A stretch of DNA of 64,000 nt, from assembly GCA_030248295.1 (NCBI GenBank), contig JASANH010001081.1, positions 62,001-126,000 on the forward strand, given 5' to 3'. Below the pieces are notes generated by a model. That model did no database searches, was not told where the DNA came from, and saw nothing but the letters and a program-made list of their open reading frames with translations. This stretch comes from Mesodorylaimus sp. YZB2_4 (Eukaryota; Nematoda; Enoplea; Dorylaimida; Dorylaimidae). Below are positions 7,220-48,200 of the stretch, piece by piece; within the stretch, counting starts at the first letter, position 1; the number at the start of each line of letters is the position of its first letter. The position numbers were made by a program, and so were the translations under genes.

Positions 7220-9726
7220 AAGTCATTGGGGAACAAAGTTGAATAGAAAACAATTTAGATTTTAGCGTTTAATCGAAGGTTTTTTGGTGGTGTGTAGTGA
7301 TTTGTACAAGAGATGTCATTTTGACAGTTATGACAGTTTCCTCTCTTCTCACAAGGGGATGTCGCGAGGTGGCAATGCGGACTTCATATTGCGATTGGTC
7401 GCAAAATGCTGCTTGATACAACAACACATTTTTTAGAATATCAGCTGACAGCCAGGTGGTCAGTTGTGGCGAGGTAATGCTGTACAAGGCCCAAGTATCC
7501 GCCGGACATTCGAGATTTTGTTTTCTTTAACGGATAAACGCCCCCTGGGTATAAAGTTTGATGACTTTGATTGCTCGCCACGGCTGACCACCCAGGTATT
7601 AGCCGTCAAGATTTTTAAGGATATGTTCCATGGTACCAAGGAACATTTCGCGGCGTGAAGCCCGTATTGCCACTCCACGACCTCCCTCTGTTCTCTTCGA
7701 AAACAGCGTGCAATGTGCTCTTGCACTCACTCAAGTATCGATCATGGGCGCTGGTGATCATCCAGCCGCATAGCTAACGGTAAGCTAGTCCTACCACTGG
7801 TCGTTACAGCTCTGACGATGTGTAGATCTGCCCCAGTCTCGCAGGTTAAACCTGCTGTAGGCATCGCCAGATGTACTCTGGACTTCTGTGACACTGACAA
7901 GAATGAGGCTACAGCGAGCGGCTCCATGTAAGGTGTCCTCGGCTAACCCGCGTGGGGCCTAAATCAGAAGATCTGTTGCTTGCGGGTGAAATCCTTGGCT
8001 CGACCCTGACTTAGGAGAGGCTGACCAGTTCCCTGAACCAGTGCACTCATAACTAGGCCGGAGGGCATAGTACACGCCCAGTCCAAGCCTATTACACGGG
8101 CTACCCATCAGGATAATTCCCAGTGTACGAGTCCACAGGCCTTCAAGCTTCAGACTGTTCCATTAGCTCGATTGACATTGCCAAAGCCAGGCTCGTGCCA
8201 CGCTTCTCTGCATTGGTACTCGCTGTAGTTCAACAAAGTAGCGTGCTTTTACGTCATGTGACTCGACCTTGTGCCGTCAGCTCTCTTTTTCGGAAATCAC
8301 TGAGCATAAAGGAATAACAGTTGCGCCATAAAATGCTTGCACATAGAATTCTTCCTGGACCGAGGACTAATTTGGAGGAATCATCCCAAGTGTAGTGATC
8401 AGGATGATGTTAGTTCCATATATACCGCGCATTGCTATTTTAAAATGATTGCCTTCGTTTTTATTTGGCACTAGCTCATTCGTTATGTCTAATCATGAAT
8501 CATGCTATCTTTGCGTTTTCTACGAAACCTACATAAGCTCGTCTTTTCGTGTCTTTAGAGCGCTTTAGTCTGTTCGTGAATTTCGGTAAGCCAATAAAGA
8601 GTTGCTTTCACTCGTGTAGAGTCCCCTTTGTAGGAACCCACCCAAGCGCTACGCAATCTCACGCCGATGCTTGGTGCCTATGCAACTCTGACTCTGTAAC
8701 AGTCTGAATAGCCATACACTGAAGAAGATACCGCGGAAGAAAGGACCACACACTGCTCAGTGTCGCTCCAAACTGCCAGTAAGCAAAACACATGCAGTCT
8801 CCTATGGGGACGAACACTATCGATACTTTGCGATTATCTGTCTCACTGATCGTGAGCCACATCCTTTTTGGCCACCCATTCATGTTCATGATCATTATTT
8901 ACCATATCACTAAGCACAGGTATGATGGCCTGGGCTTGCGTCCACAATCAGTCTAGCCCATCAGTCCACTTTATACTCAAGTCCACTGACTTAGGGCATC
9001 CATGCTGGCAGCTGGCTGCATCACCCGTCAAGGCGATGTTTCAACCATGGGCTAGGTTGGAAGACTGTGCTGCCCTGGGTTCTTGGCATAGCAAAAGCTC
9101 CCTTCAGCTCCCTACGGACCTAGACCTATTACGTACATGATGAATAACAGCATTGGTTTTTAACCTGCCTGTCTTAAGCTAATCCTAACTTCTAGACTGT
9201 GGCGCACTGACATAATGCTTGATATCTTTTATTTTCTGGAGTGTTCTGTTGTTGACACCCTTTTTCCATAGGTACTGCCGCCAGATGGCGTGCAGAAAAC
9301 CAAATCGGGTATTTCCGTCCCGCATTCTCTGCCAGCAGCGATGTTTTGCAATCAATGCGGCATTGCACAAAACACCATTGCTGCATCTGGCTCGCATCCA
9401 GCCGCTAGTCCAGGCGACCAACAAGAATGATGTTGTGCTCTGTCGAAGGCAAACAGAGCGAGATTTAGCTGGCCCAGAGTCGGTTAAACATCCATTGCAG
9501 CCAGCTGGCACTAACCAGCAGAAGCGCCTGTACTAGACGAGACAGCTTTGCGACTGGTGCGAAGCATAAAACGAATCTGGTTCGATATCGATTGTTTATG
9601 TGGATTGTGCTCGTAATCTAAATCATAGTCGTCTGATTTGGACAAAGTAAGTTGGACCATAGCAGTGGGGCAGTATTATTGTGTGCACCCGTGTCATATG
9701 CCACCCTTGTTTACGCGCAGATAAAC
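7220..9726. other. Intergenic region between hpd and the MDH-like gene
   Basis: No gene is recognised. The notable content is an imperfect foldback at about 7350-7700. Frames up to 108 codons on both strands near 9185-9536 overlap each other and match no family seen. Confidence 0.4.
7350..7700. repeat. Imperfect foldback (inverted repeat, arms about 125 bp)
   Basis: The left arm (about 7350-7475) and the inverse of the right arm (about 7575-7700) are colinear: GAGGTGGCAATGCGGACTTC pairs with GAGTGGCAATACGGGCTTC, CGCAAAATG with CGCGAAATG, and GGTGGTCAGTTGTGGCGAG with GGTGGTCAGCCGTGGCGAG. The loop is about 100 bp. It looks like an aged foldback MITE. Target duplications were not identified. 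Confidence 0.55.
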
Positions 9727-11228
9727 ATGCCTCTATTGCAAAACGCCGTACTCCCCTTGATGCGCCAAACAGCGCGTTTTCGTCACGTTGGTACCAAAGT
9801 GACCATCTTGGGAGGCAGTGGAGCCATTGCGCAGCCACTGGCCTTGCTGTTGAAAAGCAATCCAAGGATCACACATTTGGCTTTGTACGATGTGGTGCCA
9901 ACTGGAGGCGTGTCGGCTGATCTGTCCCATATCAACACACATGCCCAGGTGAGTCACTGCTTGGTATTGATGTCTGGTCCTGAAGTCTGCAGTGCTCAAG
10001 AGTGACAGCCCTCCCAACATACGCCAATGCATATTGCGCAGGGGTTAGGTGAAGGTGCCTTGCGCAGTTCAGGGTGCTCAGGGGCTGTCAGTAGACGAGC
10101 TCGTGTTACGGGATAAGAATTGACGTTCAGTGATACTAGATAAGTGATGAGATGAGATTCAGCAATGATGAGATAAGAAGTAACGTTCACTTATGTATTC
10201 TGGGGCCTGCTGAAGGAGCTGTTTGTCACAGAAAAAGACCCAGCGTTTTGGTCCTTTGTGTCTGTAAATAAAAACTAATCTCTAGACCACAGCTACCTCA
10301 TTAAGCTGGCGTCACGAAGTGTCAGTCGTGTCTAATCTTAGGTGTCGGCACATGCGAAACCAGAAGAAATTAAAATGGCGTTAGAAGGATCCGAAATCGT
10401 GCTGATCGCTGCCGGTTCCCCTCGTCGTGGTGCCATCACATCCCAGGATGCACTATTCAAGACGAATGCACCGGTTATCAAGGCACTGAGTGAGGCAATC
10501 TCCTTCCACAGTCCAGACGCCTTCGTCGGTGTCATCACACAGCCCATCAACATGCTTATGCCGCTCGTGTCCGAAGCACTGTATCGTCGCAACGTCTACA
10601 ACCCAAATCGAGTCTTCGGCATCACTACCTTGAACTCGGTTCGTGCTCGGGCTTTCGTGAGTGCACTGAAGGGCTTGGACGTGGATGAGAGTTGCGTACC
10701 AGTCTATGGAGGCAGCACTGACGTTACCATCGTACCTATATTTTCCCAAACAACACCAGCAGTGGATGTTTCGGAGAATGATATAAAAGCATTGGTATGA
10801 CTTTATCAATTTCAAATTTGGGCGGGAATTTTAAATTGAAAGCTTTGATGTTCAATTACACTCTACGGATCGGGCGTATATTTGCATTATAGACCCAGCG
10901 CGTACAACAGGCTGACGACGAAGTATTCAAGGCCAAGGGAGGCACAGGCTCTCCTTCCTTATCCATGGCCTATGCAGCTTATCTTTTCACCAACAGCCTC
11001 GTGGAAGCATTGGAAGGCAAGTCAGACGTGGTTCGTTCGGTCATGGTTCGCTCAAACCTGATCCCGGGTGTTGAATATTTTGCCAGCAAAGTATTGCTGG
11101 GCAAGCAAGGTGTCGAGAAGGTTTTGCCACTGGGCGACCTGTCACACTTCGAGAAAGTGACTTTGGACAATGCTGTGCCAAAGTTAAAACAGGATATCGC
11201 CCAAGGAGTTGAGTTTATTCGCGCTTGA
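9727..11228 (+). CDS. Mitochondrial malate dehydrogenase-like protein, probably catalytically inactive
   Basis: Exons 9727-9948, 10342-10794 and 10893-11228, all phase 0, encode 336 residues. Residues 1-20 (Arg-rich, no acid) resemble a mitochondrial targeting peptide; an in-frame ATG at 9652 would add 25 residues that spoil it. The fold is clear over the full length: DVVPTGGVSADLSHI, VYNPNRVFGITTL, GSPSLSMAYAA. Key residues differ from active MDH: the Rossmann loop is GGSGAIA (third Gly lost, 29-35); the loop PRKPGMTR is PRRGAITSQ, so the second substrate Arg is gone; the Asn of ANPVN is Gln141; the Asp of TTLDIVR is Asn172; the catalytic His of GGHAG is Ser199. Arg102 and Arg175 remain. The frame is intact with good splice sites, so it is not an ordinary pseudogene. 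Whether it binds NAD or a partner enzyme cannot be told. Confidence 0.9.
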
Positions 11229-11730
11229 ACTGAATCAGTTTGAAATGAATGGCTTTCGACTAATTTGTTCCTATGCTGCCAGTGTGTGGTGTAAAGTAGT
11301 ACTTCGCGAGGGATCCATTACTTGGACATGGTACCATACTATATTATAGTAGCGGCGGTCATTGCTTTCTTCTTTTATGTATGTATGGTGCTGTCGCTGA
11401 TAAGAAGGATATCTACTAGTGCAAATTACATAATGAGGCGAAAGATTGCGTGCAGCTCTTTTTTTCTGTATGTGCAAAATAAAACACAAAGTTATTATGT
11501 ACTCTGGACATCGCTGTTTCATTATTTGAATATCGCGCGTAAATTGGAGAGAAACAAAAATTGTCTGCTAGTGGCGGTAACTAGTTTCACCTTCCGCGCA
11601 CTTTCAATGGATTTCTCCCAAGAATTTTGCCGGGTAGCAAGTATAGATATCTACCTCTATCCGGTCCTTGTTCTGTATAACTTGCTGGTAGATACCGTGC
11701 AGCAGTATTGTGCGTTTTTATTGTTAGTGA
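11229..11730 (+). other. 3' flank of the MDH-like gene and 5' flank of the NRAMP gene
   Basis: A canonical AATAAA lies at 11478-11483, 250 bp past the MDH-like stop and 248 bp before the NRAMP start, a plausible poly(A) signal. No other feature was recognised in this 500-bp head-to-tail spacer. Confidence 0.4.
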
Positions 11731-14700
11731 ATGGAAATGGCTGATAGCAACAGCCCCAGCGAATCAGCTGCTGTCGTATCGGTCCCGACTGAGAGGCCCA
11801 GGACCGAGGTGAGTAAAGTGTCCCTTGATTCTGTACCAAACTGTCTCCAGGAAAGGAGCAAGAGTTTTTTCGATGCGATTTTGTTCAGAGTACGCTGTTT
11901 TGAAATGTGGCTTTACAGTTCTGTTTGCATCCTGGTTTGAAACTAGCCCATACGTAGGCTATGGGTTTCAGTTCTGTTTTTCCCTACGGTAAGCCATTCT
12001 ATTCTTTCAGGACACCAAATCGGAGAAATTTCGATTCAGTTTTCGGAGGCTAGCAGCATTTCTCGGTCCTGGTTTTCTTATGAGCATTGCCTATTTAGAT
12101 CCTGGTAACATTGAATCCGACTTGCGATCAGGAACATTGGCCGGTTTGAATGTAAGTTTCTTAAATTTTATTTAGCTTTTTCTCAACCGTACACAAAATC
12201 ATTCGTTTAGCTGTTATGGGTTCTTCTGCTCGCTCACGTTCTCGGTTTGTTGTTGCAAAGGCTGTCCGCGCGATTGGGCGTTGTGGCAGGCAAACATATG
12301 GCGGAAGTAGCTTACGTTTATTATCCTCGGGTTCCCCGGCTTATTTTATGGATTATGATCGAAATTGCGATTATCGGCGCCGATATGCAAGAAGTGATTG
12401 GAACTGCGATTGCCTGGAATTTGTTATCGAACGGATAGTAAGACGCTGATGTTTCTTCGAGCAAGTGATTCACGGGGAAGGCAGGCTGTGTTGATGCTGT
12501 GTAAGCTGGAAAGTTATGGCTCTTACAACTATAGTTCACGAGCCGTTCTGATGAATGTGTTCTGGTTTTAGTTTGCCGTTATGGGCCGGCGTCTTGATAA
12601 CCATTGTCGACACTATGACGTTCCTTCTGTTGGATCGATACGGCCTTAGGAAACTGGAAGTTTTCTTTTGCTTTCTTATAGCAGTAATGGGTCTGACGTT
12701 CGGAATCGAGGTAAGGAATAGTTTACTTTGTCACACCTCTGCTTTTTCATTTCTTCAACTCTTTTATAGTATGTATTTTCTGCTCCTAGTCAGTTGGAAG
12801 TACTGAGCGGAGTTTTTATTCCGAAATGTCCAAATTGTGATACAACCATTTTTCTGCAAGCAGTGGGAATAATCGGTGCCGTCATCATGCCTCACAATTT
12901 GTATCTTCATAGCGCCTTGGTGTCCAAGGTATGTGCTTCTTGTGAGGTGCTGGTAATGGTTTTTCTTTCTGTGCTAAATAGATTTTTTTAGTCAGGAAAT
13001 GTTGATCGCACGAAACGCACAGCTGTTAGCGAAGCGAATGTCTACAATGTTATCGAATCGGGCTTGGCCTTGGGATGCTCATTTGTTATCAATTTATTCG
13101 TCGTTGCTGTATTCGCCGTGGGCTTGCACGGAAAGAGTAACGCGGAAGTGGTAAGTTAAAGCTGATGCTTCTGATAACAGGTATCGTTAGGTATTTTACA
13201 CCACCTAACCTTGGTCCTTGGGTCACATTGGTCTGATCGTGAAAGGGTGAACGCGGTGTGTTTAGGAATTCATGGCCAGGCTTTGGCGAAGTCCGTTGAA
13301 GGGCCACATTGATCTGGCTGAGAGAGGGAAAAGGTTTGTCAAGGGGATCCTTGAAGGCGCAGCAGGGCAGACCTGGCACGGCTTATCGTCAGTGAAGGTT
13401 TCTAGTCAGATGCGAATATTTATGTGTTTGGATAGTCTTAAGGAAATCTGGCTTGTTAGGCCTAGCGAGCCATCACTAGGATGGATGCACAGCTGTTGAT
13501 AAGAGAGGTAGTTGGATTTAATTCAGGCTTGGCTAATGATTAGTTCTATGGCGAGCTTCAGCTTCGACGTCCTACCTGGCACCTGAGTGCGTAAGGGGCT
13601 GGTCACCCTTGAGAGTGGGCTGCGAGCCCTAGCATTATTAGGCCCACGACCCTGCCGCCCACAGTAAATTACTGAAGAAGTGGGCAATCTTTTAATGCGC
13701 ATCCTTGGTGAAGGACAGACTCCTTACCCCGCAATGCCACCCACGACCCATCTTTTACATGCAGAGCACGTGCGTGCCCAGTTTATAGTACATCGAGTCC
13801 ATAAGGCTATGATTCTCGGTTTGCTTGTTTCAGCACGCTGTTTGCGAGGCCAGACATGATCCACACTCGTCCGTATTCCCCAACAACAATGACACCGTCT
13901 CTGTAGACATTTACCGCGGAGGTCTGTTTCTCGGATGTCAGTACGGTCCAACCGCTTTGTATGTCTGGGGCATCGGTGTCCTGGCAGCTGGTCAAAGTTC
14001 CACGATGGCGGGCTGTTACGCTGGCCAGTTTGTGATGGAGGTAAGTAGCGATCTGGTCGTTGAGGGTCATTCTACGTGTGGTCATTCTAGGGTTTTGTCA
14101 ACTTATCCTGGTCCCGGTGGAAACGTGTGTTTTTCAGTCGAAGCATCGCCATTGTGCCTACTTTGATCGTGGCCGTGTTCCGTGATGTGCGCCAGCTGAC
14201 GGGCATGAACGACTTGCTTAATGCCTTGCAAATGCTCCAGCTACCGTTCGCCTTACTTCCTATTTTGACATTTACGTCATCGAAGGCTGTCATGAGCGAT
14301 TTTAGGATCAGTGTGTAAGTGTCGGCTGGGGCGAGGGGCATAGGTGTTGTGCAGACGGGCCTTGCACCGAACCGAGCTGATGACTCTGGAAAACTCGTTG
14401 TCAGTCTTGTCTCGTATCCCGTGACAGCGAAGGACTTCCGTTTTAGGCTTTCTCGAGTATTGCTCGGCTTTGTCGCGTGCCTGGCCATTGGTATCAATTT
14501 GTACTTTATATTCGATTTCATCAATTCGATCACTGCTCATTCGCCTGGCGCCTATGTCGGCATTGGGTTACTGATGGCGGTCTATTTTTTGATGGTGTTC
14601 TATTTCGTAGGTTTGAGTTCATCGTCAGGAGGCCGGGTTATTCTTCTATTGAGACTCATTCATTATAGGCTGTCTATTGCCTTATTGCAATGGGAGCGGA

Positions 14701-15569: not shown

Positions 15570-18500
15570 ATGTCGGAGGAAGACACGGAGGAAGAGCGAT
15601 TCAATGTCGACTTGAAAAGTTGGATTCAGAATGGCCTCATCGAACCGAAGGTCAATGCACTGAAGTACAAGGATGTAGAGGTAAGGAGAAGGCGATTGAA
15701 GTGTTGCAGGACAGGGAAATAAGGTGGGATTATCCTCTGGCTGAGGGGAACAGTATGATGAGAATGGGGGCGGCAGACGAGTTAGCATATGCTCTCCAGG
15801 TGTAAACATGCCCTGTGGATCAGGAGCCATTTTCGCAGTCAACCAAGACTCGTCCTGCAAATCTTAAGACATGTGTCCTATCCTCATCGTAGTGATTGGG
15901 CTGCCTAAGTCTGGGACTGTGTACTGGGGAGGGGGGGTATCTGTGGGCAGATGACCAGTTAGCATCTGCATCTGGCCGATGTTCTCTACAGTAGTTATAA
16001 ACATGTCCTGTGTGCAACAAGCTGAATGGCCGTACATTGGAGAAGGCACCACGGGGAGCGGATAGTCTCAAAAACAATCCAAGCAAGCCTCCTAATACAC
16101 TGCTCCATGTGTAAGGCGGCCAGTCAAGGCAACCAAATACACAACCTTCCCTACAGGCCAAACACGCCCAGTGGATCAGGGCCCACTTTCACGGTCTGCC
16201 AAGACGCATCCTAAATCTTAGGACATCCTACAGTACGGCCTATCCTCATTGTGGTGATATGGGCTGCCTAAATCTTGGACATGTCCTTCATGATTGTGGA
16301 AATGGCCCCATCTCCTTGTTTCATAGTTCCAGTGAAGAGATGACGACCTATGCTAATGCTATGCTATGCTAATTTATCTCTGCCCAAACACTTATCAGTG
16401 CACTGAACGGCGAGTACATAAGGAAAACAAGAAACATTAAAACCGTCGAAAGAACTAAAACTCTGTTGCCAAAATGTGGCTTTTGAACACGTTATAAGAT
16501 CCAATGGCTACCTCATATGGCATCACTTTTTTATCACGATTCCAGAAGTTCTTTATCACCGAATATTCAAAACTTTGACCAAAAGTTTCTTTGATGAGAC
16601 GAGGTAACTTAAAGAAGTGTGCTTGAGTCGTGCGCTCATTATATCTTTGACCCGAATCCACAATGTGAATGAATCTGCTATTTGTTGGATACGCAGCGTG
16701 ACCATGGTAAAGTTTGTAAAAATGGAGCATCTTCAGATGATTTCGTCTTGTTGATAAAGTATACCAGCCAAGTTCCCTAATCGCTTCCTCGTATGGTTTT
16801 ATCCAGTCATTGAGAATAGCCCTTGCCGCGTATTTTTTGTGCCCGTTCAAGATCATCAATTAAATATTGTAATGTAGGTGCCCAAGCACAACATCCGTAC
16901 TCCAGGCAAGGTAGTATACATTGCAAATAAACTGTCTTCAACACGTTTGATGCAAATTTTCCAAATTTCTGTCGAAATGCTCCGATCATTCGACGAGCCT
17001 TGTTCGCCGTTTCCTGACAGTGATCCACAAATTGCATCCTTTCGGATAGCAGGATTCCCAAATATTTAACAGTGTCTGCAAAAACGATTCGATTGCCATT
17101 AAGCGAAACAGTTGGTTGAATTTTCAGTGGCTTAGGGCTTAGACGAAAAATGCATCCTTGCGTCTTGCTCTCATTGAAGGCCAGCTCTAAATCCAAAATC
17201 TCACGACTGATAAAGTCAATAGCCGGTTGTAAGTTGGTAGCCACATCATCCAATGAGCAAGCCGGTGAAATTAGAACTAAGTCATCGGCGTAGGCTTGCA
17301 ATAAATAGCCAGATTCAATTGGAAAGGCAGCTTGGAAATTTTCGAGAACTGGATTTATAAACGCAATGAATAGTGTGGGTGCCAGCACCGATCCTTGAGG
17401 CACCCCCGATTCCACTGGTGTCGATTCCGATGCACAGTTATCGACACATGTAAACTGTGAACGGTCTTGCAAATACGATGCTAGCCATTGCAATAGTCGA
17501 GGAGATAGGTGATGATAATGTTCTAAGATTTCCAATAGCCCTTTGTGAGACACTCTGTCAAAGGCTTTCTTCAGATCAAAGAAAACTGCTGCAACAGCAC
17601 GAGAGGCTCGAACATTAAGGCCATCATGAATCGATTGCGTCAATCTAATCAGTGCTCCAGTCGTTGAGAACCGCGGTCGAAATCCGTGTTGATTTGGCGA
17701 CAATCGTAGACATGGACGCAATATTTGTTGAACATGGCGCTCAAGAATCTTCGATTGTATTGGAAGCAACGAGATTGGTCGATAGTTCTTGGCTTGATGA
17801 CGGTCGCCCGGTTTCGGTATTGGGATTACCTTCGCCACCTTCCATGCTTTCGGAAAAACTCGCTCAACTAGCGAGCGGTTACACAATGCCGTAAGAGCTG
17901 GAGCAATGGACGAGGCCATGTTTCTGAGAATAGGCGCAGACAGTCCATCAATGCCAGGAGCACTTTGAATACGGAGTGTTGCTAGTTGTCGATGCACGAA
18001 ACTAAATGAGACGTCACAATCGTAATAATCTCCATTATCAAGAGGAGGTGGAGAATATGGGCTGCCCATGGTTTGGTTGAAATTTCCTTGAAATGACGTC
18101 TGCAACAATGTAGCTTTCTCGGCCGATGAAAAATGTGATTTGTTGAAATCGTCAATCAAGGGAGGAATTGATCGATCATCTGGACTAAAACGTCGATAGG
18201 CTGCCCAGAAGTCAGCAGGCGATTTAGCCTCCGAGAATAATCGATCAATGTACTGACGTTTCGCTTTACGAACATCCTTCTTCACTTGCCTACGTAGCCG
18301 ACTGAACCAACCAAAATCTTTGATGTCGTTTGACTTCTTCCATTTCCAGTAGGCATGATTCTTCTCACGAATTAGGCGAAGCAATTCTGAGGCAATCCAC
18401 GGATGCTGCTGGCTTCTTTGGACAGAACGGCGTGGAATAATTTCTGTGATTACCTTGGTGATCCTGTCCATAAGCCGATTACAAGCTTCATCCACATCTG

Positions 18501-19924
18501 ACGCTGAGTTGACCAGGTGTAGGCTCTCTTCAGCTGATATCCTACGATTCACTTCCTTCCAATCAACACGTCGTATACACCAAGCGAGACGTTGATCAGG
18601 AAAGTTCGCTTTTGGTCGATTCCCCAAGCTAATCGATAATACATCGTGATCAGAAGAATCAATAGGTGACAATACTTTTGTTTCACGATGCCTTTGACCA
18701 TCCCCAATAATCGCCAGATCCAATAAAGTACGATTTTTCCTTGTGGGCACAGTGACGGTTTGCGTGGCGTCCAGGCTACTAATGAGATCAAAAACTGCTG
18801 TTCGGGCAGGTGAATGAAGTAATAAATCGGCGTTAAAATCTCCCACAATGACCAATCGATGAAATTGGTGTCTAAACGCACGTTGACAATAATGCAAAAG
18901 CGCGTGAATTGCCGCTGGACATTGCTTTGGAATGTACACTGTCAACAGAACAACTGACTCTTTACCAGTTCCAATTCGAAGGGCTAGAATTTCCAAATCA
19001 TCTCGGCCGATCCCTAAATCATTTGCAGACTTCAATTGAATAACTGGAAGCGTTGACTTAATGAAAGTCGCAATGCCACCACCACCAGATTTCCTGTCCC
19101 GCCGATAGACATTGTAATCACGTAAATTTTGCAAGAGGAAATCATCCGATACAGAATAGTCGATTTTTGTTTCAGCAATACTAAGAATATCAAATGACTG
19201 CTCGATAATTACTGGATGGATGTTATCAATTTTCCCTTTTATACCATTAACATTAGAAAAACCGATTCGAAGAGAAGACGTTGCTGGTGTCATATAAAAC
19301 CAGTTTCACCCAGAGCAAAGTCGCCAACCGACCGATCAGGCCAGAAGAACAAAAAACTACGACCTTTCTCTTGGCAAGTCAGGCTGGCCTTGGAATGACC
19401 AGCTGCTCAACGACTGATGGTGAGAGCGAGGCAACCAACTCACACTCGCTTACAGCCAGCAGACGAGCCAGTTGGTGGCCAATGAATGGGCCCAGACTCA
19501 AGCGCACGGTCACTAGAGGTCACTACTGCTCAGTCGTTGGCATATTGGCGACAGTGGACTAGGTCGCAAAGCGGTCATCTGCTGTTGATGTGGCTCATTT
19601 ACAGGTTAGCCTCCCATATATCTCGGGTGCCTGTCGTTTTTCACCACCTCGTGTGCTCCCTCCACCAGAACCCTTCTTTCTCTACCCTAACCTTTTCAGG
19701 GACGCGTGCATCGTGGTTCAATTCTTCCCAATGGTTCGATTCAGGCCAATGAGCCCGGTGGCAAGGTGTATCGCACACTTCGATCCTGGATGGCGTCTTT
19801 CGTTGATTTGGGTCCTGGCCAAACGAAAAGTTGGGAGTACGAGATGAAACGAGTTCGATATAGGAACACACGAATGTGGCAGTTATATCGTATGGCAAAA
19901 TTGAACGACGAATCGATCGACTGA
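15570..19924 (+). CDS. Small RAMA-like domain protein, domain split by a 4-kb intron
   Basis: Exon 1 (15570-15680) and exon 2 (19700-19924) join in phase 0 to give 111 residues, starting MSEEDTEEERFNVDLKSW. The product reads as one domain: LKSWIQNGLIEP, NALKYKDVEGRVHRGSILPNGSI, GKVYRTLRSWMASF, KSWEYEMKRVRY, MWQLYRM. This order (LI..GLI.P, a strand pair ending DG or NG plus I, then SW or SP at a helix start, then W) matches the RAMA-type domain of MPN-domain-containing proteins such as MPND, which lies next to a JAMM deubiquitinase domain there. No JAMM domain is seen here. The donor GAG/GTAAGG and acceptor CCTTTTCAG are strong. The intron contains a diverged direct repeat and a complete LINE on the other strand. 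Additional exons cannot be excluded. RAMA assignment is from pattern and needs a profile search. Confidence 0.62.
15809..16292. repeat. Two diverged direct repeats of about 115-125 bp
   Basis: Bases 15809-15920 and 16167-16292 share, in the same order, GTGGATCAG, TTTTCGCAGTC/TTTCACGGTC, CCAAGAC, AATCTTA, CCTATCCTCAT and GGGCTGCCTAA. Divergence is considerable. They lie in the intron of the RAMA-like gene just downstream of its first exon; probably an old tandem or transposon-derived repeat. Confidence 0.55.
16350..19300 (-). mobile_element. Non-LTR retrotransposon (LINE), nearly full ORF2
   Basis: The element is oriented opposite to the host gene. The coding part is bounded on its 3' side by about 100 bp of UTR and a short repeat (TAGCATAGCATAGCATTAGC read on the minus strand, near 16352-16375) of the kind that ends CR1/L2/Jockey-group elements in place of poly(A). 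No ORF1 or clear 5' end was found beyond 19293, so it is probably 5' truncated or its ORF1 is unrecognised. Target-site duplications were not found. Confidence 0.8.
16455..19293 (-). pseudogene. LINE ORF2: AP-endonuclease plus reverse transcriptase, one frameshift
   Basis: The main frame is 19293-16807 (828 codons). The N-terminal 220 residues are an EEP endonuclease: IGFSNVNGIKGK, IAETK, YRRDRKSGGGG, VIVGDFNAD and SPIDSSDHDVL supply the Asn, Glu, Asp-x-Asn and Asp-His catalytic positions. The reverse transcriptase follows with YRPISLLPIQSKILE, HGFRPRFSTTGAL, FFDLKKAFDRVSH, GVPQGSVLAPTLF and the active-site YADD. The C-terminal end (LEYGCCAWAP) passes into a second frame (about 16850-16455) carrying the conserved tail. 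The break is one missing A in a run (T6 at 16833-16838 on +), after which the frame stops at 16807. The rest is intact, so the copy is recent or the missing base is an assembly error. CR1/Jockey-like by motif style; the clade is not certain. Confidence 0.85.
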
Positions 19925-39200: not shown

Positions 39201-42200
39201 CGGGAAAAAGGTCGCACGACAAAAGGTCGCAACAAAAAGATCGCAAAGGCAAGAAGGTCGCACGACAAAAGATCGCAACAAAAAGATCGCAAAGGCAAGA
39301 AGGTCGCACGACAAAAGATCGCAACAAAAAGATCGCAAAGGCAAGAAGGTCGCACGACAAAAGGTCGCAACAAAAAGATCGCAAAGGCAAGAAGGTCGCA
39401 CGACAAAAGATCGCAACAAAAAGATCGCAAAGGCAAGAAGGTCGCACGACAAAAGATCGCAACTAAAAAGATCGCATATATAAATTTTTAAGCAAATTAG
39501 AGCACTGCGTTAAAAAAATTTATTTTCACTCTCATAACATGTCGAAAATGGCCAGAAATACCATAATTTTACATTTTACACCCACTGTCATGAAACGTGG
39601 AACATAATACGAGTAGGTTGCATTAAAAACATATTTTAGAAGTTGTAATTATGAGCGACACCGCGCAAATAATCCATGATATCTCTGTTATCATAATCAT
39701 TTACGATTCTTTCGATTCTTTCCGCGCAATCCCGATACTTTCGTCGGCCTTGAGGCGGTTGCTGGCCAGCGACATACTGTTCGATCTTGGTTTCATTCAG
39801 ACTTTGCTCTTTCTTCAACGAATCGATGAATTTGAAAATCGATGGATGATGGGCGCCAACTAGCTCAGAAAAACCTCGATGCCACCCCTCCACCGAATTA
39901 TTAGTCTTCGCAATTCCATTAATCACCGATTCACGACAGTTCCAAAGTGGTATTGGAAACAATGGGCCACGTCTTATACCTCTGCGGTTTGGTCTGCCGA
40001 TCCAAGTGTCCTCGAAATAATCGACGACTGGTTGTGCCTCTGCTGGCAACAATTCGGCCAATTGCTCAAACGAATCCACCACCGCAGGAATCGGTACGAA
40101 AGATAATGCGGGCAGCATCCTCATTTGCAATCCAAAGTCCGGATCATTCTCATACCGATGTTGTAGGCCAGCAGCTTGGATTTTGCGCCAAATGCTTTGC
40201 GAAAAATGAAAAAAGCATCCACGCCTCTCCGTCTGAGGAAATTCAGAAGCGAATGCATTGATCGCCGCTTGCTCGAAATCAGTCATAATGGAAGTTGGAT
40301 TCAGATTTGCATTCAGCTCCTTCAACTCGGCCAATAACTTGGTGTACGTAACTTCGGTCTTGTTTGGCAAGAGAGCGAAGACTGATGGAATGACATTGTT
40401 GTAATGAACGCCATGAATGGTATACAACTGTTCGAAAAGCGGTGGTGCTGTCTTGAAAGTACCATCTGCGTACCAATGAGGGCTGCGCGATAGCAATTGC
40501 AAATTCCTCTCCGCAGAAAAAATCAAAATTCGATTTGGACCTTCGCCGCTGTCACGCAATAAAAACTGTTGGCCACCTTCGGTTTGTTGAAATTCGGGAG
40601 GAATGATCAAATCTTCCAGCGATCGAGGATTTGGAAGCACACCGCCGAGTACTCCCCGTCGTGTTCTCTGCACTGTACGTTTCATACATTGAACTGGCGG
40701 AAGTTGGCCTTGTACAGCAGCTGACAACCCAGCTGTCACTGCAGCAATAATTTGATGGGTCGATTCCTGGGCTCCTGAGGCTCGATCTTTAATGTTGTTC
40801 ACGACGTTTTTCACAGCTATCTTAGCTGGATCGGGGGCATGATTATGCTCGCCTGGCTCCTTCGACACCTGTCCGTTCTCAGTTTGCATTCGGGATCGGC
40901 AGTTTCCCCTGTTGTTTTTGAAATTCACGCACTTCCAATCGATTTTGTTTCCGCTTTCCCGCTCCTTTCCGAATAAGTGCCCGCGATAACAAAGCTGATC
41001 TTTCCCTTTCTGACTTTTTGCGAATTCTAAAGGCATCTTGCAGCAAAAAGAGAATCGCAAACTAACTCTAAGAAACAGCTGAAATGGCTAAAACCTTCAT
41101 CGACAGCTAAATTTATAGGGGGACATAAATGAGCTGTCATCACCTTCATTGTTTTTCATGGTTTTGTTTCTTGCGACCTTTTATACCATGCGACCCTTTT
41201 GTCCTTGCGATCTTTTTAGTTGCGATCTTTTGTCGTGCGATCTTTATGCCCTTGCGATCTTTTTGTTGCGACCTTTTGTCGTGCGACCTTTTTACTGCGA
41301 TATTTTGACATGGAATCATTCTCAGAGTGCATAGCGACATATTTGTTGGGTAAGTAAAGCTGCCAAAGATAAGGCCACAGTCAGAAGAGCACATTTGTTG
41401 CAGATATACCATCCCCTGTAACCACACCAGGTCTTGTAACACCCGATACCCGACTTTCTACAGTACTGCCAAGAACTGTGAAGACTATTAAACCGACGAC
41501 GAGACGACCACCAGGAGTCACCCAGAAAAAGACGACTGCAAGAGGCAAGACGACTAAAAAAGTAACGAGCCCAGCTGGAGCTACGCGAAGGCCACCATCG
41601 AGCATTACGACTAAAATGGGAAGACGGCCAACAACAGCCAAGCCAGTGACAGCCATCCCAGATTTTACGGCGCCAGAAGTATTGACGATCAACATAACAA
41701 CAAGGCCAGGCCTACCTGGCACAGTGCAGCCAGAAGGTGCATCCGCTAAACCAGCAGTTACATTGATGGGCGGTGTCTCCACAACAGCTTCAGTTCCGCA
41801 GCCCCTTGTAGGAGCACCTGAGATGAAAACTACAAAGTCGGCTGTGCCAGAGACAGGGCCCACAGCAGCGCCTGAAGGTGCACCAGGTGAAGGCCTAACA
41901 CCTAAGACTCCTGCCAAACCAGGAGTAACAGCGGGAGGAGCAGCAGTGCCAGGTTTAACATCGTCAGTGACGACGACGACAAAGCCTGAAGCGACAGAAA
42001 TCGCACCTGGAGCGACAAGTGGGAAAGTGAGCTCGAAAAAAGCTCCAGGCATATCCCCAGTGGCGATAGCAGTGACACCCGAAGGAGCTACGACACCCGA
42101 GTTGCCAGGAGTGACGGCGATCGGCATACCAGTACCAACTACACCCAGGCCTGTTAGCACTGCAACTTACAAGAAGGGTGAGATTACCAACATCGTCTTT

Positions 42201-45200: not shown

Positions 45201-48200
45201 CATCAGAGGTTACGAGACGGGTACCATCAACTGGAGGGCCGAAAGCCACTCCTACCGGTCATGCACGTCCAACAGTTGTAACAGTTATTGTGAAAACACC
45301 TGAAGCACACACTGCGCGACCACACATCCTCGAGACTGAAAAGCCGAAAGATATAACTCCAGTTGCCCCAGCTGTTACTCGGTTGAGACCAACAGAGGAT
45401 GGCCTTCCCACTGTTGCTGTAGAACCAGACGCCACAGAAGAGTCCGAAGAAAATTCAACACCGGCAGTGCCCGGTACTTTGTTCTAATATCGCAGTGATC
45501 AATCATTGTCCTAATTCTGGACTTTTTTAGCAGTGCCTGCTTTCGAAGTCGAAATCGAGCAGTTAACTCCGCATACGGTAACCATACATTGGGATAGGGA
45601 CAAGGACCTTCTGCCTCCTGGCTCCTCGTACACGTTTATTTTATCGGACAACTTCACTGGCGCGTCCGTGCAACTGAAGTCAACGTCCGCTTGGGATCGA
45701 TATGTGTTCGCTGTTCGACCAGACACAGCTTACACTTTGTCAGCGATCGCGCAGAGTGACGAGACTGGGATCATACAGACGTCAAGCAAACTCAAGTTCC
45801 ACAGCCTAACTGACCCCATCACAACAGGGTTTCCACTACAACCCATCACGCCAGCGCCTGTTATGCCGTATGGTAGGAAGAGCAAGTAAAAGTAAGCATG
45901 GGAAATAAAATAAACTTTATGCTTTAGTGCCCATTGATCTGAGGCCACTTATTAGTGAAATTGAGCAGATTTCTGACACATCAATGAAAGTTCGATGGAC
46001 AGTTGCAAAACCGGAAACTTTGCCAACGGATTGGGTAAGTTTGCAGGTGGTGAGTACAGTAGAGGGGAACGTGCCTTCATTTGTGTGGGGAATGTGTGAA
46101 TACTTCGAGACATTTGCATTCATTTATCAGAGGGACCAAAGTGACTCGGCATTCAGTTAGCTGATTTTCATTGACCAGTAGTGTGCGGCTGGGCTCCTTT
46201 TGGGTTTAATCTCTTGCAACGGCGGTTGAATGACTCCAGGAAACACCGGGCGGGCATGAAGCCCGTAAACCAAAACTTAAAAAAAATTAGTCACTGACTG
46301 TTGGAGTCAGTCATCACCGCGCTGACCAGTTGGAGTCAATAATCACTGCGCTGCTTACTTGCGGCACTCTTTTACGTAGAGCGTGAAACCAAATCACCAA
46401 TGCAATTCACATTACTCAAATTATAGAAGCCAGCGCATAAAAATTCTGCCGAAAATTCGCATATCAATAGGATGCAGTGCAGCGCACTCTCATGATGCGC
46501 TCAGACATGCACAGATACGAGAAACACAAATCGTTACAAGAAGACATAGCATAACTGCATCCGCCGCGCTGTCGAATTTTGCGGTCGTGCGATCTGATCT
46601 AGTGCAATAAATTTTTACAGGAACATCCATAAACATTGTAAGCGTGTCTGTCTTCATCCGTGGACGCAATACAGGGAACATATAAATGAATGAATTAACA
46701 AATCTAAGCTTCTATTTACAAAAATTTGAATTTAGGTTTTTTTTAAGGCAATTCAAGTTCTTCGTATTCCTTAATAAGTAGTCCTTTCTTCGGTTCCAGC
46801 TCTCTCATTTCGGTCGGAATCAGGAACGCAAATGCAGGGTGGTCCCACCGACTAAAGCGGTCATTTTTCTTGGAGTTTGAAACCGTATAAGTAAAGTCGC
46901 TGGATGTCGAGTATGGTTTCCACATCCATTTGCCATCTCCTGGGTTTTTATTAGCTGGGTCGTAAACAATCGCTCCTTCTTCCTTTGGTAAAACATCAAA
47001 GAAGAAAGCTTCTTTCTTGTTTTTCTCGCTCGAACCAATCCTGGAAGTGGAGCATTTATTCAAAAACTTGATATCGTCCTTTGCGAGATATTTTTCTTCG
47101 GGATGAATGATTATCGCATTCAACACTTCAGCTTTGTAAGTCTCAGTGCCGTAACAAGTAGCTTTCAGCTTCATGTTATCATCTCCGAGTGAAGAGCAAT
47201 ACCTAGCCAAAAGATGATCCAACTTGACTACTATTCCCTTGTCCGCCTCTATTCCATGTTGGATGCCTGTAAATGGTTTCGTCTTTCCGTAGTAATCACC
47301 TGCTTCACTCAATGGCTTCGGGCTCTCAGGGTATTCGTCCCGGAAATATCTGTTGATCTCTTCTTTTCTTTGATTAATAAACGCCACGTATTCGTCTCGT
47401 GCACTCTTTCCAACATATACAGTGAACCAAACTAGCGCTGCTTTCGCGCAGTCAGGCTGGTATTTAGACTCAATCATTTTCGCGTTATTTTCTTTCTTGA
47501 AATTAAAGAATTTTGGCGCCGCCTTGAAATGTATGCCGTCATCTTTCTTCATTTTTTTAAAATTATTATTGGTTGTCGAATGGATCACCGTATCAACACT
47601 AAATTCGAAGCGAGTTTCGCCAAACTGATCAGAGTACCGTTGAATGAAGGTTTTGTTTTCCTCAACTTCCTCTTGCCTTCTTGAGACTTCCTCTGCTTTG
47701 CGAGAGGAAAAATTCTCGAAGTGCTTTAGTTCATCTGGGACATACTGATAACGATTTTCACCGCGTAGGCGTTCTTCAACCGTATTAAAATGCTCGCTGG
47801 CGCAATCCAACAATATTCCAGGGCGCAACTTACCAACTCCTTTATTCGCATGTTGGTAAAGCCAGCCTTCTTGATCCTTGACGTTGTTCGTAGCCGCCGT
47901 CGCCATTATTCCTAGTTAAAATCCTATACGCTTAATAAACTTGTTTAGCAATGCAAGGGATTTTGTCGAGCAGCCAAAGGCGCCTGGGTTGAAAGCATGT
48001 AAAATGTGGGTATAAAATTTAAACAATTTGCCAAAAACTACGTATATAAGACTCGCGACCAGGATGCGACAGTAGAACGTCTCTGTGATAGGCCCTGCTT
48101 ATACGGCTTACGCCGTGGGCGCCACTGTAAATATTATGTCCCGCATCCCGGACTTCTCTTGTTGTCTGATAAGACAGGATCATCACACTGAGAAAACCTG

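Follow-up and report, generated by a model that had tools for sequence, protein, structure and literature searches.

The window analyzed here is a stretch of 64,000 nt from the nematode Mesodorylaimus sp. YZB2_4 (assembly GCA_030248295.1, contig JASANH010001081.1, positions 62,001 to 126,000 of the forward strand). The genome was searched as a 145-Mb assembly of 1067 contigs in which the window's own contig is labelled C87, and all coordinates below are window positions. Two protein families that mark nematodes are well represented in this assembly, with 133 matches for the cuticle-collagen N-terminal family and 27 for TTR-52, whereas 14 control prokaryotes gave none. At 9727 to 11228 on the forward strand, splice sites and translation define an MDH2-like gene of three exons and 336 codons with a 336-residue product, no internal stops and two GT-AG introns that are both in phase 0 (Table 1), in agreement with the three clean exons described in the first-pass annotation. 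Among signs of a pseudogene, no stop, frameshift or broken splice site was found in the gene. Directly upstream, the stretch 9715 to 9726 (+) contains a CAG that ends six bases 5' of the ATG and is a candidate trans-splice acceptor or end of a 5' UTR intron.

Table 1. Features of the MDH2-like gene, in window positions
Feature	Position	Strand	Remarks	Basis
Exon 1	9727..9948	+	Codons 1-74; N-terminus resembling a presequence, then the first part of the Rossmann fold	Translation, GT donor, alignments to PDB entries and TIGR01772
Dinucleotide loop GGSGAIA, residues 29-35	9811..9831	+	Replaces GASGGIG	Alignment
Intron 1, GT-AG, phase 0	9949..10341	+	Coincides with no intron of the C13 MDH2	
Exon 2	10342..10794	+	Codons 75-225; all six catalytic and substrate positions discussed	
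Mobile loop R102-S108, RRGAITS	10423..10443	+	First substrate Arg kept, second lost; adjoining one-residue insertion	Alignments
Q141	10540..10542	+	Replaces first Asn of ANPVN	Alignment
N172	10633..10635	+	Replaces catalytic Asp (LDH D168)	Alignment; role according to an excerpt of PMC9486893
R175	10642..10644	+	Substrate-binding Arg kept (LDH R171)	Alignment
S199	10714..10716	+	Replaces catalytic His (LDH H195)	Alignment
Intron 2, GT-AG, phase 0	10795..10892	+	Coincides with no intron of the C13 MDH2	
Exon 3	10893..11228	+	Codons 226-336, then TGA stop (included)	
AATAAA	11478..11483	+	Possible polyadenylation signal	Motif only

The MDH2-like protein matches positions 1 to 312 of the 313 positions of TIGR01772, the equivalog model for MDH2, at 330 bits against a cut-off of 273 (the MDH2 encoded on contig C13 of the same genome reaches 456 bits), as well as positions 1 to 141 of 141 of Pfam Ldh_1_N and 1 to 173 of 174 of Ldh_1_C. 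Among solved structures, the protein is closest to the mitochondrial MDHs of pig (1mld) and human (2dfd/4wle), and its identity amounts to 49% with the C13 MDH2, 46% with human MDH2 and 42% with the glyoxysomal MDH of Citrullus. Judging from these matches, the enzyme fold is retained while the catalytic residues are lost. The first 22 residues include three Arg and neither Asp nor Glu, and a helical moment as high as that of the N-terminus is reached by 398 of 2000 shuffles (268 of 2000 for the C13 MDH2), so that a targeting peptide is plausible but its moment is not exceptional. The full fold with a targeting peptide that the first-pass annotation had proposed therefore stands at the level of sequence for the fold, and as a plausible element for the targeting peptide.

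Directly downstream of the gene lies a frame that looks like an exon of an NRAMP-type metal transporter (12211 to 12438, +; Pfam Nramp, 8e-23). Further along the window, we find an open frame that resembles a non-LTR retrotransposon and has domains of an endonuclease and a reverse transcriptase (16807 to 19305, -; 831 residues scanned, no stop) and a run of exon-like frames from about 27000 to 52400 (+) that is a candidate for one very large modular extracellular gene, with Ig, fibronectin III, Kunitz, EGF-like, thyroglobulin and VWA domains in three scanned frames and with Thr/Pro-rich stretches. Inside its span, the opposite strand carries a MULE transposase with a FLYWCH zinc finger (39636 to 41087, -; 482 residues scanned), and a single long open frame at 46743 to 47915 (-; 389 residues scanned) has no Pfam match at E 0.001. 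Elsewhere in the assembly, 15 COX1 sequences are among the matches listed (L033; C73, C273, C741, C47 and other contigs), all with in-frame stops under the standard code and perhaps representing many nuclear copies of mitochondrial DNA, and the best COX1-like stretch among the contigs translates as COX1 under the invertebrate mitochondrial code.

Active site and normal paralogues

For the LDH/MalDH family, the residues involved in catalysis are given in LDH numbering as H195, D168, R109 and R171 together with residue 102, the discriminating one, with the His-Asp pair as the catalytic core (excerpt of PMC9486893), and the three substrate Args of MDH are named in an excerpt of PMC5054688. We mapped these residues by alignments including LDH, MDH1, MDH2 and one bacterial MDH, in which the five LDH positions correspond to S199, N172, S108 (or the adjoining Q109), R175 and R102 of the MDH2-like protein. 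Two of the three substrate Args (R81, R87 and R153 in E. coli) are present as R102 and R175, and the mobile-loop Arg (E. coli R87, LDH R109) is S108, next to an insertion of one residue. The first Asn of ANPVN, which we take to be equivalent to LDH N138 and E. coli MDH N119, is replaced by Q141. As features of the NAD site we assumed the Gly-rich loop GxxGxxG and a ribose-binding Asp, of which G29, G32 and D55 are kept in the alignment and the third Gly is A35. M250 is kept as well, and new acidic residues appear at three invariant columns (G201D, G233D and T234D). The DLSH His is aligned to LDH H68, a residue that in LDH-type enzymes sits at the interface of monomers A and B and acts on R171 (excerpt of PMC9486893), and both this His and the equivalent of R171 are kept. 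The alignments thus bear out the residues called in the first-pass annotation (S199, N172, Q141 and GGSGAIA at 29-35) as well as its missing substrate Arg, and from its residues the MDH2-like protein is very probably unable to do MDH chemistry.

How unusual these replacements are was judged against 83 other MDHs, comprising the C13, human and Citrullus proteins and 80 bacterial loci, the best 80 of 523 relatives confirmed among 593 pattern matches and a narrow set of gammaproteobacteria according to their records. Because the bacterial loci had been picked by two peptide patterns, the columns around 108-117 and 228-236 are partly fixed by construction and their invariance is partly built in. 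In this set with the best 80 of 523 bacterial relatives, the columns of the catalytic His and Asp, the mobile-loop Arg and the ANPVN Asn are invariant in 83 of 83 proteins, and all four are replaced in the MDH2-like protein. Altogether it departs from 23 of the 92 columns that are invariant across the set (best 80 of 523 bacterial relatives included), which include four of the six positions for catalysis or substrate binding (hypergeometric P 0.03). With the same best 80 of 523, invariant columns no more than three residues away from one of the six key positions are changed more often than those elsewhere (10/20 versus 13/72, P 0.007), a contrast that is weaker at a margin of five (11/29 versus 12/63, P 0.07) or eight residues (12/33 versus 11/59, P 0.08). 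Six active-site segments, picked after the alignment had been seen, hold 21 changes in 57 columns versus 2 in 35 outside (P 0.0009; best 80 of 523), and among columns conserved at 97% in the set with the best 80 of 523, the MDH2-like protein differs at 43 of 131 and the C13 MDH2 at 14 of 131. The changes in the MDH2-like protein thus seem to concentrate at the active site, though wider margins weaken the contrast.

The first-pass annotation had suggested searching the whole genome for a normal paralogue, and this is found on contig C13 (L027) as an MDH2 that we read as seven exons and that carries GMTRDD, ANPVN, TTLDIVRA and GGHSG. Family searches gave four further LDH/MDH places, two of MDH1 (C27 and C4) and two of LDH (C157 and C82); the gene models and names of the C13, MDH1 and LDH genes are our reading of frames and motifs. 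Among the six LDH/MDH genes found, the MDH2-like gene alone has neither the catalytic Asp nor the catalytic His, and the other five keep the Asp..Arg and His motifs. We rejected a local duplicate or second haplotype of the MDH2-like gene, as the protein search (six candidates scored) matched the C13 gene and the MDH2-like gene itself only. An alternative exon with GGHAG, which the first-pass annotation had named as an observation that would speak against its reading, was sought together with GGHSG on both strands within 8001-14000 and not found, because the only two GGH matches of this region read GGHST and GGHCF.

Constraint on the MDH2-like gene and its origin

We compared the MDH2-like gene with the C13 MDH2 over 335 codons using NG86, which gave dN 0.48 and dS 2.6, a pairwise value that averages both lineages at a near-saturated dS; with this qualification, the dN/dS near 1 that would have counted against the first-pass reading is not seen. 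Synonymous sites are indeed near saturation: of 91 fourfold sites, 29 are identical. The two genes differ at codon positions 1, 2 and 3 with frequencies of 0.43, 0.26 and 0.65. In simulations of neutral drift that allowed substitutions only, started from the C13 coding sequence and placed all change on one lineage, the frame stayed open in 0 of 300 runs to 49% identity and in 2 of 300 to 70%, where the mean number of stops was already 4.7. Given such stops under neutral drift, the branch of the MDH2-like gene cannot have been neutral as a whole. The GC3 of the gene (0.55) lies above the GC content of its introns (0.47 and 0.34) and close to that of the C13 gene (0.53).

Constraint is also apparent in the distribution of amino-acid changes. 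Of the columns at which the C13 and human proteins agree, the MDH2-like protein is changed at 30 of the 112 that are highly conserved, at 17 of the 38 of intermediate conservation and at 35 of the 59 that are variable (P 6e-5 for the 112 versus the 59), so that change is half as frequent at highly conserved as at variable columns. For columns on which human and Citrullus agree, the counts for the MDH2-like protein are 31 of 106 where conservation is high and 23 of 38 where it is variable, compared to 5 of 106 and 14 of 38 for the C13 MDH2; in a comparable control on other columns, the human protein is changed at 3 of 104 and 13 of 37. From these counts, constraint on the MDH2-like protein persists in a form weaker than in active MDHs. 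End branches of 3.92 for the MDH2-like gene and 0.22 for the C13 MDH2 mark the former as fast and the latter as slow, and most amino-acid change therefore falls on the MDH2-like branch. We consider it very likely from these comparisons that the gene is maintained by selection, though the long branch and a constraint weaker than in active MDHs also fit relaxed selection. The selection on a non-MDH role that the first-pass annotation had argued for gains support from the open frame at near-saturated dS, the slower conserved columns and the normal MDH2 elsewhere in the genome.

In a tree that took in 20 of the 84 rows and places long rows unsurely, the MDH2-like gene groups with the C13 MDH2 at 94/76, which is below the mark of 95/80 and comes with a long-branch warning. 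With the C13, human and Citrullus sequences, it stands apart from bacteria at 100/99 in the same 20 of 84 rows, and a horizontal origin was rejected on the basis of this grouping, with the placement of long rows being unsure. An extra residue in SNxxPGVxYF is common to the MDH2-like protein and the C13 MDH2 and absent from human, Citrullus and L039. Neither of the two introns of the MDH2-like gene, which fall at residues 76 and 226 of the C13 protein, coincides with one of the six introns of the C13 gene, a pattern that would fit a retrocopy with later intron gain or heavy intron turnover.

Candidate function and rival explanations

The explanation that we favor as probable, based on homology and residue patterns, is that the MDH2-like gene is a duplicate of this nematode's mitochondrial MDH2 that turned into a pseudoenzyme. 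Its product would be imported into the matrix, still fold and dimerize, and act without catalyzing a reaction: it may be a dead subunit that pairs with active MDH2 and alters its activity or its docking to partners of the TCA cycle, or a homodimer that serves as a scaffold or holds a ligand. An MDH-like dimer in the matrix is suggested by the presequence-like N-terminus and by the kept DLSH His and R171 equivalent, with the caveat that their interface is known from LDH-type tetramers. The pseudoenzyme subunit or regulator proposed in the first-pass annotation is still our best guess; as a matrix protein with a dead place in a dimer or a regulatory part, it is a possible role, and the sequence fits a dead homodimer and a heterodimer with MDH2 alike. 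Mitochondrial MDH is usually regarded as a simple homodimer, and the non-catalytic subunits of NAD-isocitrate dehydrogenase offer an analogy for a dead MDH2 partner. By such analogy, one nematode lineage might have a two-subunit mitochondrial MDH in which active MDH2 binds a dedicated dead partner via the kept interface and the partner holds a ligand with its two Args, so that the step would be tuned or localized; as a specific proposal, we consider this rather doubtful.

A different origin of the same features would be a sperm- or testis-specific mitochondrial protein turned structural and possibly born as a retrocopy, which we consider unlikely. The fast evolution of the MDH2-like gene agrees with it, as do the introns (two versus six in the C13 gene, none in common), which are what one would expect of a retrocopy gaining introns later; yet two introns exist now, nematodes often gain and lose introns without any retroposition and, to our knowledge, nematode sperm have no nebenkern. 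Precedents are found in Drosophila with S-LAP cluster I (excerpt of PMC3078892) and with CG10748 and CG10749 (excerpts of PMC1839131 and PMC6154878). The first-pass annotation had also considered a different substrate, and action of an enzyme with a new reaction on another acid is conceivable because the pocket is rebuilt (S199, N172, Q141 and others) around two kept carboxylate-binding Args. The retention of R102, R175 and M250 and the new acidic residues 201D, 233D and 234D at invariant columns would suit this scenario. It is nevertheless improbable, because the lost His-Asp pair is the catalytic core of the family (excerpt of PMC9486893); no substitute pair is seen, and the dinucleotide loop has another residue in place of its third Gly as well.

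That the gene is on its way out, having recently lost its function after long constraint and gained no stop yet, would account for its long branch and for the changes at 23 of 92 otherwise invariant columns (best 80 of 523 bacterial relatives). We regard this as highly improbable: the simulated drift rules out a neutral course for the divergence as a whole (on average 4.7 stops at 70% identity, with 2 of 300 frames open), highly conserved columns are protected, the splice sites are intact and a poly(A) motif is present. An artefact of the gene model or assembly, for which we found no supporting point, is scarcely credible in view of the exact intron fit, the lack of a nearby exon with GGHAG or GGHSG, homology that spans all three exons, a protein search that matches only the MDH2-like gene and the C13 MDH2, and the ordinary NRAMP-type exon downstream.

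Relation to known systems

MDH2 is a central and very conserved enzyme, and if the MDH2-like protein pairs with it, this step of the TCA cycle would have a regulatory subunit in some animals. The case also carries a warning for annotation, as the equivalog match persists despite the lost catalytic residues: with the TIGR01772 cut-off passed, a pipeline that relies on this model would annotate malate dehydrogenase here, and the genome would be credited with a second active isozyme. Pseudoenzymes as a kind are well known; searches of open-access papers, at the level of record listings and abstract openings, showed no description of a catalytically dead MDH2, a dead MDH2 subunit or a nematode case.

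The MDH2-like protein shares with animal MDH2 (pig 1mld, human 2dfd/4wle; TIGR01772) homology over the full length, a presequence-like N-terminus, two substrate Args and the Asp of LYD, but differs by the replaced His, Asp, mobile-loop Arg and ANPVN Asn, the altered dinucleotide loop and one loop insertion. The closest sequence that we found is the C13 MDH2 (49% identity, the 94/76 grouping and the extra residue in SNxxPGVxYF), which unlike the MDH2-like gene has normal catalytic residues, slow evolution and seven exons, with no intron in common.

Outside of nematodes, the sperm leucyl aminopeptidases of S-LAP cluster I in Drosophila, whose catalysis is inferred to be lost and which are nonetheless conserved, resemble the MDH2-like protein as paralogues of a metabolic enzyme without its active-site residues (excerpt of PMC3078892), though the enzyme is unrelated and expression in sperm is established for the S-LAPs. 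CG10748 and CG10749, listed among retrogenes with mitochondrial functions (excerpt of PMC1839131) and described as testis-specific MDHs in spermatid mitochondria (excerpt of PMC6154878), are likewise extra mitochondrial MDH paralogues, of retroposed origin, but are called malate dehydrogenases and are compared here by description, not by catalytic residues. Finally, a dimer of MDH1A and MDH1B in radial spoke 3 contacts a regulatory subunit of PKA (excerpt of PMC11779644) and is thus an example of an MDH dimer built into a larger complex, though this assembly is ciliary and of MDH1-named proteins whereas the MDH2-like protein is of the MDH2 type.
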